Notes under the pieces: model-generated | Seen by the model: only the letters and a program-made list of their open reading frames with translations | What the model was told of the DNA's origin: nothing | The model's database searches: none | Shown here: positions 11,499-60,524 of the stretch, piece after piece | Position numbering within the stretch: the stretch's first letter is position 1 | Layout of the letters: every line of letters begins with the position of its first letter | DNA from: an uncultured Clostridia bacterium | GTDB lineage: Bacteria > Bacillota > Clostridia > Peptostreptococcales > Anaerovoracaceae | Assembly: GCA_945928865.1 (NCBI GenBank) | Contig: CAMENZ010000002.1 | Span: 62,001 to 126,000 of the forward strand | DNA length: 64,000 nucleotides | Direction: 5' to 3' | Position numbers and translations under genes: made by a program

Positions 11499-12527
11499 CT
11501 AAAATTTATTATCGGATTTACTTATTCTGCTTACCTTACCTACAGAACCATCCAGCTTAAAAGGTCTGCCCACTGGTTTTTTAGGTCTATAGTCCTTTTC
11601 TTCGTATTCATTTGATTTGTATGGTCGACCCTCCGGCTTACCGAATTTATAATCTCTAGCTTCCCTTCTGTCTGACCTATAGCCTCTGCCTTCCGGCTTA
11701 CCGGATTTATAATCCCTATTTTCTTTTCTGTCTGATCTATAACCTCTGCCTTCCGGCTTGCTAGATTTATAATTTCCAGCTTCTCTTCTGTCTTCCCTTA
11801 CGGAATGACTGTAAGCTGCTTTAGTAGGCTTATTTACCTTATAAGTTCTGTCTTTATATTTTGCTGATTTGTCTAACTCTAAATTCTTATTTTTTTCTCT
11901 TTTTTCTTTATTTTTAGCAATTCTCTCTTCATGAGCAGTTTTATTAAGTCTTTTTTTAGTTTTTGGCTTCATAATAGAATAACCGAATTTACCGAGAGCC
12001 AGTTTACTTGTTGTAAAATACTCTCCATGAATATAAGAAAGCAGTCTTGCTTTATCTAAATTGAATTTGCCTTTATCATCTATATAAGTTTCATCTACAT
12101 GAACCTTAACTATTTCTGCCATATACATATCATGGGTGTTAAAAGTTTGTTTTCCTATAACCTTACATTCTAAATTAACAGGCGATTCTACTATCATAGG
12201 ACAGCTTACCTCTTCACCATATTCTTTAGTCAATCCCATTTCTTTAAACTTATCTAAATCTCTACCTGATTTTACACCACAAAAATCCGTTTCCTTAGCT
12301 AAAGCTCCAGTAGTCAAATTGATTACAAATTCCCCGGATTCTTCAATTATATCATGAGAATATCTCTCAGGTCTAATGGACACATAGGTTATTGCCGGAC
12401 TTGAATTTATAATACCTGTCCAACCTATAGTTATAATATTTTCGTTATTCTTTTCTTTACTTCCACAAGATACCATAACTACAGGTAGTGGTGCTAAAAG
12501 GGCTGAACCCTTAAATGATTTTTTCAT
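11499..12527 (-). CDS. Flavin reductase-like protein with a basic repetitive C-terminal tail
   Basis: 342 residues from the ATG at 12527, which has GAGG 6 nt upstream; an upstream TTG overlaps that site. Residues about 1-190 match FMN-binding split-barrel flavin reductases: PLPVVMVSCG, ITIGWTGI, VSIRPERYSHDII, GEFVINLTT, FCGVKSGRDLDKF and SPVNLECKV. Such proteins bind FMN and often reduce flavin with NAD(P)H. The family usually ends near GKFGYSIMK. Here about 150 extra residues follow, rich in Lys, Arg, Asp, Tyr and Gly, including four 20-residue repeats of the type DYKSGKPEGRGYRSDRREAR (11535-11774). The tail looks disordered and could bind RNA or acidic partners. The apparent Cys near the N terminus is part of the flavin domain, not a lipobox. 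Confidence 0.85.
   Translation of the reverse strand: MKKSFKGSALLAPLPVVMVSCGSKEKNNENIITIGWTGIINSSPAITYVSIRPERYSHDIIEESGEFVINLTTGALAKETDFCGVKSGRDLDKFKEMGLTKEYGEEVSCPMIVESPVNLECKVIGKQTFNTHDMYMAEIVKVHVDETYIDDKGKFNLDKARLLSYIHGEYFTTSKLALGKFGYSIMKPKTKKRLNKTAHEERIAKNKEKREKNKNLELDKSAKYKDRTYKVNKPTKAAYSHSVREDRREAGNYKSSKPEGRGYRSDRKENRDYKSGKPEGRGYRSDRREARDYKFGKPEGRPYKSNEYEEKDYRPKKPVGRPFKLDGSVGKVSRISKSDNKF
11535..11774 (-). repeat. Four 60-bp tandem repeats encoding the flavin-reductase tail
   Basis: Four in-frame 20-codon units. Their conserved core is Y-K/R-x-x-K-P-x-G-R-x-Y/F. Units 1 and 2 are closest to each other, units 3 and 4 more diverged, suggesting stepwise duplication. Confidence 0.85.
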
Positions 12528-28750: not shown

Positions 28751-31700
28751 CTAAATATTTACTTTTTTCTTCTTAAGCTGAACATAAATTCCTAAAACAG
28801 AAAGTGCCATAGCTAAAATATAATCTGTATATGGAAATTCATCGCCTGTACGAGGAATATCCTTCCTGCCATCTTCTTTCTTTCCGTCGTTAATCTTGAT
28901 TCCGGCATTATTCTGTTTTTTCTCTTTTACTACATCCTTACCGGAAATAAATACAATTTTTCCGTTAGGATATGTAATAGTCACATTACCGTTTTTAGAT
29001 ACACTAATTGTTGTTCCCTTAGGTAATTTAGGATTAGCCTTCTTTATTGCTACCTTAACCTTTTCCTTTTCAGTTTTAGTCAACTTGTCTGAATCCTTAA
29101 CCAAAACTTTTACCGGTTTATTTATCTTAGGCATCTTATCTTTCGGATCTGTATTTTCAGGTTCCTTCACCTCGTTCTTCTTAATGAGATTAGTCCCCTT
29201 AACAACAGTTACTCCACCATAAGGAGATTTTACTGTAACAGTTCCGTCATCTGCTACCTCTATCTTTGTATCCGGTGATAAGTGTGGGTTAGCTGCTTCT
29301 ATTTCCTTTTTCAGCTTTTCCTTTTCTTCTTCTGTTAAAGCAGCAGGATTATCTACAACTAAATCTTCACTAGGTTCATTAACTACAGGAGGCGTTACTA
29401 CAACAGGACTGTATCTTCTAACTACTAAATCCGCACCATGAATAATATCTGTAAAATCTTTTTCAACATATTTTACTGTTCCGTCATCTTCAATCACTAA
29501 TTGTGCCGAATCTATCGCAACTGTAGGATTCGCATCTATTATAGCTTTCTTAACTAACTCTTTTTCTTGATCTGTAAGTTTATTCGTATCTCCTACAGGT
29601 ACCTTATTATTCGGAATATTTAGACCTTGAGCTACTACTTCCCTACCCTGAACTTCACCAATTGCGTTACCGTTTTTATCAGTAACCGTAACTGTTCCAT
29701 CATCTGTCACTGTTATCTTAGCATCAGCAGGTAAGCCCGGATTTGCCTTCTTAATAGCTTCTATTACTTCTTCTTTTTCAGAGTCAGTTAAATGAGCAGG
29801 ATCTAAAACCTTAACCTTTTCTGTAGGTGGATTTATACCTTTTTCAATGATATCTTCTCCTGCTATCTTATCTAAAACTTTTCCGTCCTTATCAGCAATA
29901 GTTACATTTCCCTTTTCGTCAACGGTTACTGTAGCTCCTTCAGGCAGTGCATCCTTATTAGCTTCTTTAATCTTATCTTCCAGAAGTTTTTTCTCACCGT
30001 CTGTGAGTTTGTCAGGATCTACTACCTTTACCTTTGGATTAGGGGTCTCAAAGCCCTTCTCCACTACATCACTACCGGCTGTTTCTCCGATACTTACATC
30101 ATCTTTATCTGTAACTGTAACCTTTCCGTCATCTGCCACTGTTATCTTAGCATCAGCAGGTAAGCCCGGATTTGCCTTCTTAATAGCTTCTATTACTTCT
30201 TCTTTTTCAGAGTCAGTTAAATGAGCAGGATCTAAAACCTTAACCTTTTCTGTAGGTGGATTTATGCCTTTTTCAATGATATCCTCTCCTGCTATCTTAT
30301 CTATATTCTTATTAGCCTTTTTATCAAAGACCGTAATAGTACCTGAAGTATTATCTACATTAATTATATATTTACTTTCATCAAAATCCGGATTAGCTTT
30401 AATGAATGCATTTTCTATATTTTCAATTTCACCACGAGTCAATGAAGTCGGATCTGCTACCTTAACTTTAGGGTTAGGTGCTTTGAAACCCTGAGTTACA
30501 ACATCTTTCCCAGCAACATCTCCTATATTAACGCCGTTTTTATCTGTAACAGTAACCGATCCATCATCTGCTACAGTTATTTTATCTTCATCAGTTAAAC
30601 CCAGATTTGCCTTCTTAATTTCTTCAATGACGTCTTTCTTATCTGCTTCTGTAAGTTTAGCAGGGTCCGAAACCATTACCTTATCAACAGGTAAATTTAT
30701 TCCTTTTTCTACTAAATCTTCTCCCGCTATCTTATCTAAGACTTTTCCGTCCTTATCAGCAATAGTTACATTTCCCTTTTCATCAACGGTTACTGTAGCT
30801 CCTTCAGGGAGTTTATCCTTATTAATTTCTTTAATTTTATCTTCCAGAAGTTTTTTCTCATCATCTGTAAGCTTATCAGGATCTACTACCTTTACCTTAT
30901 CCTTAGGAACATCAAAGCCTTTTTCTACAACCTTATCTGCCGAAACTTCACCTAAAGGTGTTCCATCTGCTTTTTCAACTGTAACCTTACCATTATCTTC
31001 TACAGTAATCTTAACATCAGCAGGTAAATTAGTATTCGCTTTTTTAATTTCTTCAATTACTTCCTTCTTATCTGCCTCTGTCAATTTTTCAGTATTAACA
31101 ACCTTTACCTTAGGATTTGGCGGCTGAATGTTTACAAATTTCACCTTTACAATATTATATACTTCCTGACCCCAAGGGTTAGTAGTCTTAACCTTAATAT
31201 CATAATCAGAGGATTTATCTGTAATACCGCTTAAATCAGAGCTTGTATTAAAATCTGCGTCTGATGATTTCTTATAACCTACGATGGTTCTCTGTCCATA
31301 TTTCTGTGTAAATTCTTTTCTGAAATATTCTTGGAACTCATCTCTGATATTATTAAATTGGGTGCTCTTAATAGATAAATTAAGCATAGCTAACACTTCA
31401 TCTGTTGTAACACTTTCTGTAGTAAATTTAGTTATGGTTCCTTCACCTATAAGCTCATCGGTATATCCTATAATTCTATAAAAATAAGCAGTAGATGCCC
31501 CATTATTATCCTGATACTCTACATGACGGGTATACAGTCCACCGGGTTCGTGATTATAGTTACCTTTAATAATTAAATTATTGTCTTGTTGTTCCGTCAT
31601 CAAACCTGATGATCCAACATTTGCATTTTCATTATTATTACCATCTAAATTCTTGAAAATATCAATAGTTCCATCATCTTTTCCCGATATTTTCAGAAGA

Positions 31701-46558: not shown

Positions 46559-47755
46559 TTAAAGAAAGCTTGGTATTTCAAACCTTGAAGTACCCTGCTC
46601 ATCTTCTTCCTGCTTAAAGATTTCTTGAAGAGTAACTTCAGTGCCATTTAAGCCCTCAACTCTTCCTATAACATCCTCTCCCACACTACTGGTTCCTAAA
46701 GTACTACTGGTTTCTTTAGGAGTATTCATACCTGTACTATGAACTTCCGGTTTGCTTACAGGTTGCTGAAAGCCACCTATAGGTGCATCTAAACCTTCAT
46801 CAAAACCTGTTGCAATTACAGTAACTCTGATTTCGTCTTCCATAGTCTCATCTATAGCCGCACCGAATATCATTATACATTCTCTATCTGCCTGCTCTTC
46901 AACTTGGCTGGCGATTTCGTTAATTTCATACATACCTAAGTCATATCCACCTACTACATATAAGAGGATAGCCTTAGCACCTTGTATAGTAGTTTCCAGA
47001 AGCGGACTCTCTATAGCAGTTTTTACTGCATCGGCAGAACGCTTTTCGCCCTTTCCATAACCTACTCCCATGTGTGCCACACCTCTGTCTGTCATTACAG
47101 ACTTAACATCGGCAAAGTCCACATTGATTAAAGCCTCATCAGAAATCAGATTGGATATACCCTGAACACCCTGTCTCAAAACATCATCTGCCATCTTAAA
47201 TGCATCTAACATAGATGTAGTTCTCTCGCAGTTTTGAAGCAGCTTATCATTAGGCACTATCACTAAAGAGTCTACATACTTCTTTAAGAATTCAACTCCT
47301 AATTCAGCCTGTCTTTTTCTTTTTGCCCCTTCAAAGGAGAAAGGTCTGGTAACTACACCTACTGTTAAAATACCCATGTCCTTAGCAGTCTTAGCAATTA
47401 TAGGCGCTGCACCTGTGCCGGTACCACCGCCCATACCTGCTGTAATAAAGACCATATCTGAGCCATCAATTAAAGCAGCTATGTCATCTAAAGTTTCCTC
47501 AGCAGCTTTCTGTCCAACTTCCGGATTCGCTCCTGCTCCCAAACCTTTAGTAAGTTTTTCTCCAATCTGAACCTTAGTTTCAGCAGCACATCTATTAAGT
47601 GCCTGTCTATCAGTATTTACAGCGATAAAATCAACGCCCTTAAGTTCAGCTTCTACCATTCGGTTTACTGCATTACAGCCACCTCCGCCTACACCAATTA
47701 CTTTGATTATCGCACCTTTTTCCATATTTGTAACGAACTGTATCATGTCATCCAT
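46559..47755 (-). CDS. ftsZ: Cell division GTPase FtsZ
   Basis: 398 residues. [17 protein letters not shown] at the N terminus, the tubulin signature [13 protein letters not shown], and the T7 loop [11 protein letters not shown] are intact. A variable linker (about 320-375) leads to the conserved C-terminal peptide RFEIPSFL that binds SepF and other partners. AGGAGG lies 10 nt before the ATG. It is separated from ftsQ by 0.7 kb and has its own likely promoter (47804-47812), so it is expressed independently of the upstream wall cluster. Confidence 0.98.
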
Positions 47756-47803
47756 TAAATCATAACCTCCTACACTCTAACTTCCACAGGATTATCTTTT
47801 TAT

Positions 47804-47812
47804 ATAATATCA
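47804..47812 (-). promoter_or_regulatory. Possible extended -10 promoter of ftsZ
   Basis: On the minus strand TGATATTAT (47812-47804) matches an extended -10, about 50 nt before the ftsZ start. No good -35 is seen. Confidence 0.4.
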
Positions 47813-47864
47813 TATTTTTGTATTAAATGCACTCTTTTTTTAAGCATTTTCAAGGAAATTTCAA

Positions 47865-48110
47865 CAAAACTATGGTATTTTTAGATTTTACATAAAAATA
47901 GACTATAGTGCGGTTGCAAACCCCTAAAAATAGTATAGATTTTAGAATTTGTAAGAAACTGCACTATACTATGTGAGCTGACTTCATTAAAAATAGTTAT
48001 TTTTTTAGATTTTGTAAGAAATCGCACTATTTTATTTTATCAAGAAATATTGTAAATAGTGAGTATCAGAGATTTTACAAGAATTCACACTATTGAAGTT
48101 GTGGGTAATC
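47865..48110. repeat. Degenerate 62-nt tandem repeat between ftsQ and ftsZ
   Basis: A core of the type AGATTTTGTAAGAA recurs at 47883, 47944, 48007 and 48070, that is every 61-63 nt. It is followed by a CACTAT-type end and preceded by AATAGT, so units can fold as hairpins closed by AATAGT/ACTATT. A further related stem lies at 48162-48198 (TAGTGGTAAAT pairing with ATTTGCCACTA). No ORF with a ribosome binding site was found in 47756-48458. Confidence 0.75.
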
Positions 48111-48356
48111 ACTAACATCTGTTATATAGCACTATTTCAAGCCTTATGCAGGCTAATTCTGTAGTGGTAAATCTATAACATATACTATTTGCCACTATTT
48201 TCACCTTACAAATAAGCCTGTGCAATTAAAACTCTTCTAGAAAGTAAGGGGAAACTGTAAATTATAACCCTAAAATCAAAACCCAAATTCTGACTTATAG
48301 GACAAATTCTTTAATCAATATTTTAGACAAATCTTTCAGCAAATTTATCCAATCAT

Positions 48357-48401
48357 AAAAGAGGCTATTAACTATACAAGATAGCTTAATTAACCTCTTT
48401 T
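48357..48401 (-). terminator. Terminator of the mraZ-to-ftsQ wall cluster
   Basis: AAAAGAGG (48357-48364) pairs with CCTCTTTT (48394-48401), with weaker inner pairing, about 60 nt after the ftsQ stop. U-rich tails are present in both directions. Confidence 0.65.
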
Positions 48402-48458
48402 ATTATTCATATTTTTTTCACACTAAGAGCAAATATCATTTTCAATAGTATCACCACT

Positions 48459-49208
48459 CTAATCCAACTTAGGGGTAAATGAAATGTAATTATCTCCGCT
48501 TATAGTTATAGTTCCTCTTTCAATTTTTTTCTTAAAGAGTTCACTTATGACTAACTGTAAGTTTTTAGTCTCTATAGAATCTTTCAAATGTTCAAAGGAA
48601 CCTTCGCATATTAAGTTATTAAGCACATAGGCATCTATTCCCTTTTTAGAAACAGTTAATGCCTTAAAGTACATATCGTTCTTAGATGCAGCCTCTAAAA
48701 TTTCCATTGTCTGCCGCATGAGGACCTTCTGTTCCATCTCAATAGGCTCTCCAATATTCAATTTACTTATGGTCATACCTCTAAGTATGGTAAGTTCAGG
48801 TTCTACAGAAGTTCTTCTTAAAACAGTTCCTTCGTTATCGATTACTATAAACTTACTACCATATACCGCAGCAGCCACCTGCCGCCTTTCATCCAATTCT
48901 ATAACTATAGTATTAGGTAACTTTCTCTTTATAGAAATATTTTTCATGTAAGAGTCTCTCTTAAGCCTTTTTTTAATTTCGCCTGTATCCACTCCTATAA
49001 AAATATTTCCTCCTGTTTTACAGTTTCCCATGTGCAAAATCTCATCATCAGAATAATAACTGTTGCCCTCTACTTCATAGGTTTTCACTTGAAATATAGG
49101 TGACTTCATTAAAAAAATCAAGGTAGCACAAACTAGGATAAAAAATGAAAATTTTATCCAGAATTTCATCCTATTCTTCCTTATTAAAATTTGTCTATGC
49201 TCTTTCAC
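48459..49208 (-). CDS. ftsQ: Cell division protein FtsQ/DivIB
   Basis: 249 residues from a GTG at 49208 with AGGTGG 5 nt upstream; a GTG at 49217 overlaps that site. A basic N terminus, one membrane helix (about 17-37), then a POTRA domain (FQVKTYEVEGNSYYSDDEIL, IKKRLKRDSYMKNISIKRKLPNTIVIELDER) and the FtsQ beta domain. It forms the FtsQ-FtsL-FtsB/DivIC scaffold at the septum. Last gene of the cluster before the noncoding gap. Confidence 0.9.
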   Translation of the reverse strand: MKEHRQILIRKNRMKFWIKFSFFILVCATLIFLMKSPIFQVKTYEVEGNSYYSDDEILHMGNCKTGGNIFIGVDTGEIKKRLKRDSYMKNISIKRKLPNTIVIELDERRQVAAAVYGSKFIVIDNEGTVLRRTSVEPELTILRGMTISKLNIGEPIEMEQKVLMRQTMEILEAASKNDMYFKALTVSKKGIDAYVLNNLICEGSFEHLKDSIETKNLQLVISELFKKKIERGTITISGDNYISFTPKLD

Positions 49209-49234
49209 TAAGTCCACCTACTATTTTATAAAAT

Positions 49235-59819: not shown

Positions 59820-60524
59820 ATGACTGCATTTGTAGAATTTCAAAATGTAAAAAAAGAATATATTATGGGCGAAGTAAAAATAGAAGCCTTAAGAGATGCC
59901 TCTTTTCAAGTAAACCAAGGAGAAATCTGTGTTATAGTAGGTCCTTCCGGAGCCGGTAAAACTACTCTTCTAAATATCCTTGGGGGCATGGATTTTTTAA
60001 GTGACGGGAAAGTCTTTCTAGACGGAGCTGAAATTTCAAAATATAATAAAAAACAACTTACTTTATATAGACGAAATCAGATAGGTTTTGTTTTCCAATT
60101 TTATAATCTGGTTCAAAATTTAACTGCTTTAGAAAATGTAGAATTGGCTACTCAGATTTGTACTAATCCTATGGATTCTAAAGAAGCTTTAGAAAAAGTG
60201 GGTTTAACAGAAAGAATAAACAACTTCCCTGCTCAGCTTTCCGGCGGCGAGCAACAGCGTGTAGCTATAGCTAGAGCTCTGGCAAAAAATCCAAAGCTTT
60301 TACTATGTGATGAACCGACAGGAGCTTTAGATTATAGCACCGGAAAAGCCATACTGAAATTATTGCAAACTATGGCTAAAGAAAAAGGCATGACAGTCAT
60401 AATAATAACCCATAACGGTGCTATAACACCTATGGCAGACCGTGTAATACATGTAAAAAACGGTACAGTTCACTCATCAGAAATAAATGACAATCCTACT
60501 TCTATCGATTTAATTGAATGGTAA
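59820..60524 (+). CDS. ABC transporter ATPase, LolD/MacB type (cassette 2)
   Basis: 234 residues with GAAAGGTGG before the ATG. Walker [11 protein letters not shown]-loop [13 protein letters not shown], signature LSGGEQQR, Walker [13 protein letters not shown] and switch His ITHNG are intact. Same class as the cassette 1 ATPase but clearly diverged. It pairs with the giant permease 13 nt downstream. Divergent from mraZ. Confidence 0.95.

Follow-up and report, generated by a model that had tools for sequence, protein, structure and literature searches.

A tandem array between ftsQ and ftsZ in an Anaerovoracaceae genome is probably one decayed copy of a dispersed mosaic repeat

The ftsQ-ftsZ gap and its tandem array

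The window analyzed here is a 64,000-nt stretch of the genome of an uncultured Clostridia bacterium and contains the division genes ftsQ and ftsZ, which are separated by 703 nt (Table 1). A preliminary description of the sequence had proposed comparing this gap with those of related genomes. In relatives of the same family that have ftsQ followed by ftsZ, the gap is approximately 80-290 nt (250 nt in the closest relative, L127) and too short to hold the element described below. Subtracting the element leaves about 255 nt, so that the surplus over the relatives corresponds to about one element. On the ftsZ side of the gap, AAAAAAAGAGTGCATTTAATACAAAAATATGATATTATA is similar to AAAAAAAGATGCATTTCTATAGAATATATGATACAATA of the nearest relative (p about 0.02); similarity on the ftsQ side is not significant (p 0.27). 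The AAAAAAAGAGTGCATTTAATACAAAAATATGATATTATA stretch may therefore represent the conserved promoter of ftsZ, lying downstream of the insertion and undamaged by it.

Four AGATTTTGTAAGAA-like cores had been noticed in this gap at 47883, 47944, 48007 and 48070. They have 4, 1, 0 and 2 mismatches, respectively, and lie 61, 63 and 63 nt apart. The period exceeds chance: the gapless self-match of 47865-48110 is best at a lag of 63 with a score of 43, while 500 dinucleotide shuffles gave scores of at most 16. A repeat search returned 3 copies of 46 nt with 63-nt spacing and 74-76% identity. The four-unit array thus holds overall, its first unit (47883) bordering on chance, with shuffles containing a mean of 1.2 and a maximum of 5 such matches. 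The unit ends reported as able to pair are indeed complementary (AATAGTG and CACTATT), the additional fifth stem exists at 48162-48199 (TAGTGGTAAATC..TTTGCCACTATT), and the interval contains no convincing open reading frame, the only one of at least 40 aa being a 48-aa GTG ORF on the minus strand. What needed revision is the extent of the feature, as the tandem repeat is present but forms a mere part of a longer element reaching to about 48308.

The outer ends of this element were inferred from a common end motif together with the gap size of the relatives, and the motif at the right is the probable outer limit of the insertion. Modules H1 to H5 and the tail are kept, the left block is worn, and the right block of approximately 250 nt that comes after the tail in fuller copies is gone. 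H4 ranks among the most conserved blocks. Since the 5' arm of H5 is common to both modules, H4 and H5 are mutually exclusive folds.

Table 1. Positions of genes and repeat modules at the ftsQ-ftsZ locus (window coordinates)
Feature	Position	Strand	Remarks
ftsZ	46559..47755	-	Pfam-confirmed
ftsZ leader	47756..47865	-	promoter-like stretch common with nearest relative (p about 0.02) and Shine-Dalgarno AGGAGG; outside the repeat
Degraded copy of dispersed mosaic repeat	47866..48308	+	antisense to ftsQ/ftsZ; own-genome matches at about 47927-48258
Left block	47866..47927	+	diverged (AAACTATGGTATTTTTAGATTTTAC; better copies AAACTGTGAATTTAAGATTTAGATTTTGC); least certain part, compared by eye, without statistics
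Hairpin module H1	47928..47972	+	AAATAGTATAG..CTGCACTATACTAT
Hairpin module H2	47991..48035	+	AAATAGTT..AGATTTTGTAAGAA..CGCACTATTTTAT
Hairpin module H3	48054..48094	+	AAATAGTGAG..AGATTTTACAAGAA..CACACTATT
Module H4	48130..48166	+	CACTATTTCAAGCCTTATGCAGGCTAATTCTGTAGTG; CACTA/TAGTG outer and AGCC/GGCT inner pairs
Module H5	48162..48199	+	TAGTGGTAAATC..GCCACTATT; the fifth stem of the preliminary description
Tail	48204..48256	+	ACCTTACAAATAAGCCTGTGCAATTAAAAC..GTAAGGGGAAAC
End motif	48292..48308	+	GACTTATAGGACAAATT (consensus GACTTATAGGACAAAAA); count only slightly exceeding that of the chance control
ftsQ (POTRA_1)	48459..49217	-	Pfam-confirmed

The window has other repeats as well. A 435-nt unit occurs in 2.6 copies at 29688-30808 (72% matches) and a 60-nt tandem repeat in 2.7 copies at 11632-11793 (83%). 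The stretch 59935-60441 is 66-71% similar to three other sites in the genome (L117, L123 and L111); these are probably paralogous genes.

A mosaic repeat family in the genome

Using the gap as a query against its own genome (1.55 Mb, 19 contigs) detected more than 20 further sites with 67-87% identity, and queries made from the left and right blocks of better copies added others. A search for further copies of the core had been suggested, and it is borne out by pieces of the element at about 40 other sites in the same genome. We analyzed 41 sites, the window copy included. They constitute a non-coding mosaic repeat of up to about 730 nt, whose pieces follow a conserved order with different modules absent at each site.

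The fullest copy (L029:2035-2763, contig C10) is 729 nt long. It starts with a left block (beginning ACTTATAGGATAAAAAA), continues with H1-H3, H4 (CACTATTTCAAGCCTTGTATAAGCTAATTATGTAGTG), H5 and a tail ending in GTAAGGGGAAAC, and finishes with the right block. H1-H3 have AATAGTG/CACTATT-type arms around a AGATTTTG-type core; H5 has AATAGTG/CACTATT arms as well and carries the core in reverse. The right block folds back on itself via CTACCATACATTTT and CATAAGGG arms.

A second hairpin series was also observed, in which the same left block (GGTAATTTATGGTAAAAGTTG) precedes modules with GTTGTC/GACAAC arms and, again, a AAAATCTG core. It occurs at L090:881-1110, L091:818-1080, L093:834-1160, L099 (minus strand, near 829) and L100 (minus strand, near 871). 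Since the left block is common to both series, two or more related mosaics are present in this genome.

Two of the copies, L083:631-1198 and L085:928-1483, have flanks that are 93-98% identical and look like a segmental duplication rather than separate insertions. Their identical internal junction had made amplification of a deleted form a candidate, which we rejected because the flanking sequence is common to both. The non-independence of these two sites leaves the picture of placement and orientation given below unchanged. Another copy (L032, minus strand, about 2820-2850) begins right after a tRNA-like sequence (GGGGCTCGAACCCGTGAGGGCAGCTC), possibly an insertion at a tRNA gene.

Distribution outside this genome

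A covariance model of the H4-H5-tail region matched 18 copies in the genome itself and had no match in another 79 genera of the family, under strict filters that weak relatives could escape. At the DNA level, 40 relatives yielded just two matches of 28-29 nt, which is near chance. Exact patterns of two conserved stretches were matched neither by any of 84,980 species genomes nor by IMG/VR, sets from which records of this very genome are possibly omitted, and phage and plasmid records held nothing similar to the element. The best reading of these searches is that the repeat would be lineage-specific, at the level of a species or genus.

This distribution bears on the suggestion that the array binds a protein controlling ftsZ. 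As a role specific to this locus it is not supported: the modules recur by dozens of unrelated genes, the ftsQ-ftsZ gaps of relatives are too short for the element and the core is absent in the 79 other genera. A more general version takes the AATAGTG..AGATTTTG..CACTATT units as recurrent sites of a DNA-binding protein, either a regulator or one involved in chromosome organization. Arms and core vary less than a large part of the linker sequence, and the half-sites recur in both orientations with a regular spacing of 61-63 nt. However, common origin also predicts such constancy, most modules are missing from many copies, and the copies lie beside many different genes with the core confined as described above. 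We consider the binding-site explanation very unlikely.

Placement and orientation of the copies

According to simple ORF calls, the analyzed copies sit between genes or at gene edges, adjoining many different genes. Convergent gaps are over-represented: 12 of the 41 copies lie in one, compared with 16 among 141 other gaps (p about 0.01), a background taken from stretches chosen around the copies. In co-directional gaps, 20 of 23 elements are oriented opposite to the genes (p 0.0005). Relative to the leading strand, as assigned by GC skew, the opposite orientation prevails by 32:9 in total (p 0.0004), with counts of 22:1 for co-directional and 8:4 for convergent gaps. Because genes lie mostly on the leading strand, effects of transcription and replication are not cleanly separable in these counts, and the evidence leans toward transcription given the weaker bias in convergent gaps. 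The orientation bias suggests, without proving it, that the reverse orientation is harmful when transcribed. An alternative meaning is that such a strong bias could reflect a function in transcripts.

Folding of the element

One form of such a function would be that the modules act as gene-sense RNA hairpins which stabilize, process or terminate messages and are hence kept at many operons. The 20:3 bias against co-directional genes fits this proposal, as does the split of 8:4 relative to the leading strand in convergent gaps. Also in its favor, the fold of the full copy surpasses that of its shuffles, with z about -2.8 for gene-sense RNA and -4.0 for plus-strand DNA. For the window copy, the fold is modestly better than shuffles on the plus strand (z -1.9) and no better on the minus strand (z -0.26), which is the strand co-transcribed with ftsQ-ftsZ. 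The consensus fold of the alignment is better than that of column-shuffled controls for either strand (z about -3), as is expected of a sequence full of inverted repeats.

The covariance analysis of the hairpins proposed in the preliminary description gave no sign of selection on pairing. Among 11 copies, the arms of a stem either do not vary or have lost pairing without compensation, with double changes and pair types within the range of column shuffles, and in the alignment fold the covariation term has the wrong sign. An RNA gene with covarying stems was rejected for this lack of covariation above shuffles. In addition, no Rfam family matches the element, no terminator-like site was found in 47700-48500, and each copy is truncated differently. 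No selected RNA fold is evident in the element. A structured regulatory RNA, one of the roles first considered for the array, would be expected to show compensatory changes or a match to a described family, and neither was found. We therefore regard gene-sense RNA hairpins as an unlikely reason for the persistence of the modules.

Ends and mobility

The third role first considered, remains of a small mobile element, agrees well with a dispersed multi-copy family, a gap enlarged relative to those of relatives, and mosaic truncations. The array looks like an old mobile-type insertion and not like a control device of ftsZ. The left end GACTTATAGGACAAAAA recurs among copies, and its inverted form is found at the right end of one copy only (L089), a possible sign of terminal inverted repeats. 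The motif is scarce, occurring at 7 places in the genome, barely above the control level. No closely spaced pair exists among these 7 places, so that an autonomous copy bounded by the motif was discarded as a candidate. Right ends are mostly truncated, and neither a target-site duplication nor an exact empty site could be made out.

Domains of three transposase families, Y1_Tnp (IS200-type), DDE_Tnp_1 and rve, were searched for and none was found in the genome; the control genomes were positive. This indicates that the mobilizer is of a kind not recognized here or was lost. It also weighs on the possibility that the units are REP/REPIN-type or IS200/IS605-derived hairpins moved in single-stranded form by a Y1 transposase, a mode of transfer that would account for the replication bias. 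Hairpin modules and the 32:9 bias against the leading strand would suit such elements. However, that bias is unclear (8:4) under convergent transcription, and the cognate Y1 (RAYT) transposase is not found in this genome, although the same search detects Y1_Tnp in control genomes. A REP system driven by a Y1 transposase was excluded on this ground, and we find the broader Y1-based origin highly improbable.

It is quite improbable, too, that the repeat belongs to an undescribed class of hairpin mosaics, multiplied without a recognized transposase and with an orientation set by transcription, one of its strands being tolerated, or put to use, in messages across the genome. Instead, the array is very likely a single decayed copy of a composite interspersed repeat that is lineage-specific, non-autonomous and non-coding, similar to BOX elements or MITEs. 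We propose that this repeat multiplied in the lineage in the past through a mobilizer not recognized in the genome, and that the copies would then have eroded through deletions. In the ftsQ-ftsZ gap, a copy oriented antisense to both genes may have landed immediately upstream of the ftsZ promoter without disturbing the leader. Its influence on ftsZ, if any, would be incidental, consisting of extra spacing and of hairpins in read-through RNA from ftsQ.

Comparison with known repeats

By analogy, the closest kind of known element appears to be a composite interspersed repeat such as BOX. The BOX elements of Streptococcus pneumoniae (boxA-boxB(n)-boxC) are modular, non-coding and intergenic, have strong predicted folding, are enriched between convergent genes and are restricted to few related species (PMC3049150). 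The present repeat is likewise composite, non-coding, intergenic and multi-copy, with ordered modules of variable internal content, a strong predicted fold, enrichment between convergent genes and a narrow lineage. Unlike BOX, with which we found no matching sequence, it consists of approximately 40-nt hairpin modules with several arm types, its full copy, at about 730 nt, is far above the size of typical small repeats (<200 bp), and a strong orientation bias was measured.

Bacterial MITEs are also short, non-autonomous, non-coding, inverted-repeat rich and dispersed (reviewed in PMC10969869). The repeat shares with them its multiple copies, short length and lack of coding capacity. It cannot be assigned to them formally, as neither target-site duplications nor a parental transposase or insertion sequence came to light; a terminal inverted repeat is suggested by one copy. 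REP, BIME and REPIN elements with their RAYT transposases (PMC2817692, PMC3116915) similarly comprise palindromic extragenic modules in mosaic arrays with both orientations per array. Here, in contrast, the Y1/RAYT transposase is lacking, the modules are longer and the arm types are several and unrelated.

We conclude that the feature is real, ordinary in kind and not specific to cell division; the repeat family that it represents is new, and its type is known. What seemed to be a control array specific to ftsZ is thereby struck from the candidates and replaced by a genome-wide repeat family. This family raises the question of why a repeat with no recognized mobilizer keeps nearly always to a single orientation where the flanking genes are co-directional, and it offers a test case for the spread of hairpin-rich repeats in small genomes without obvious transposases.
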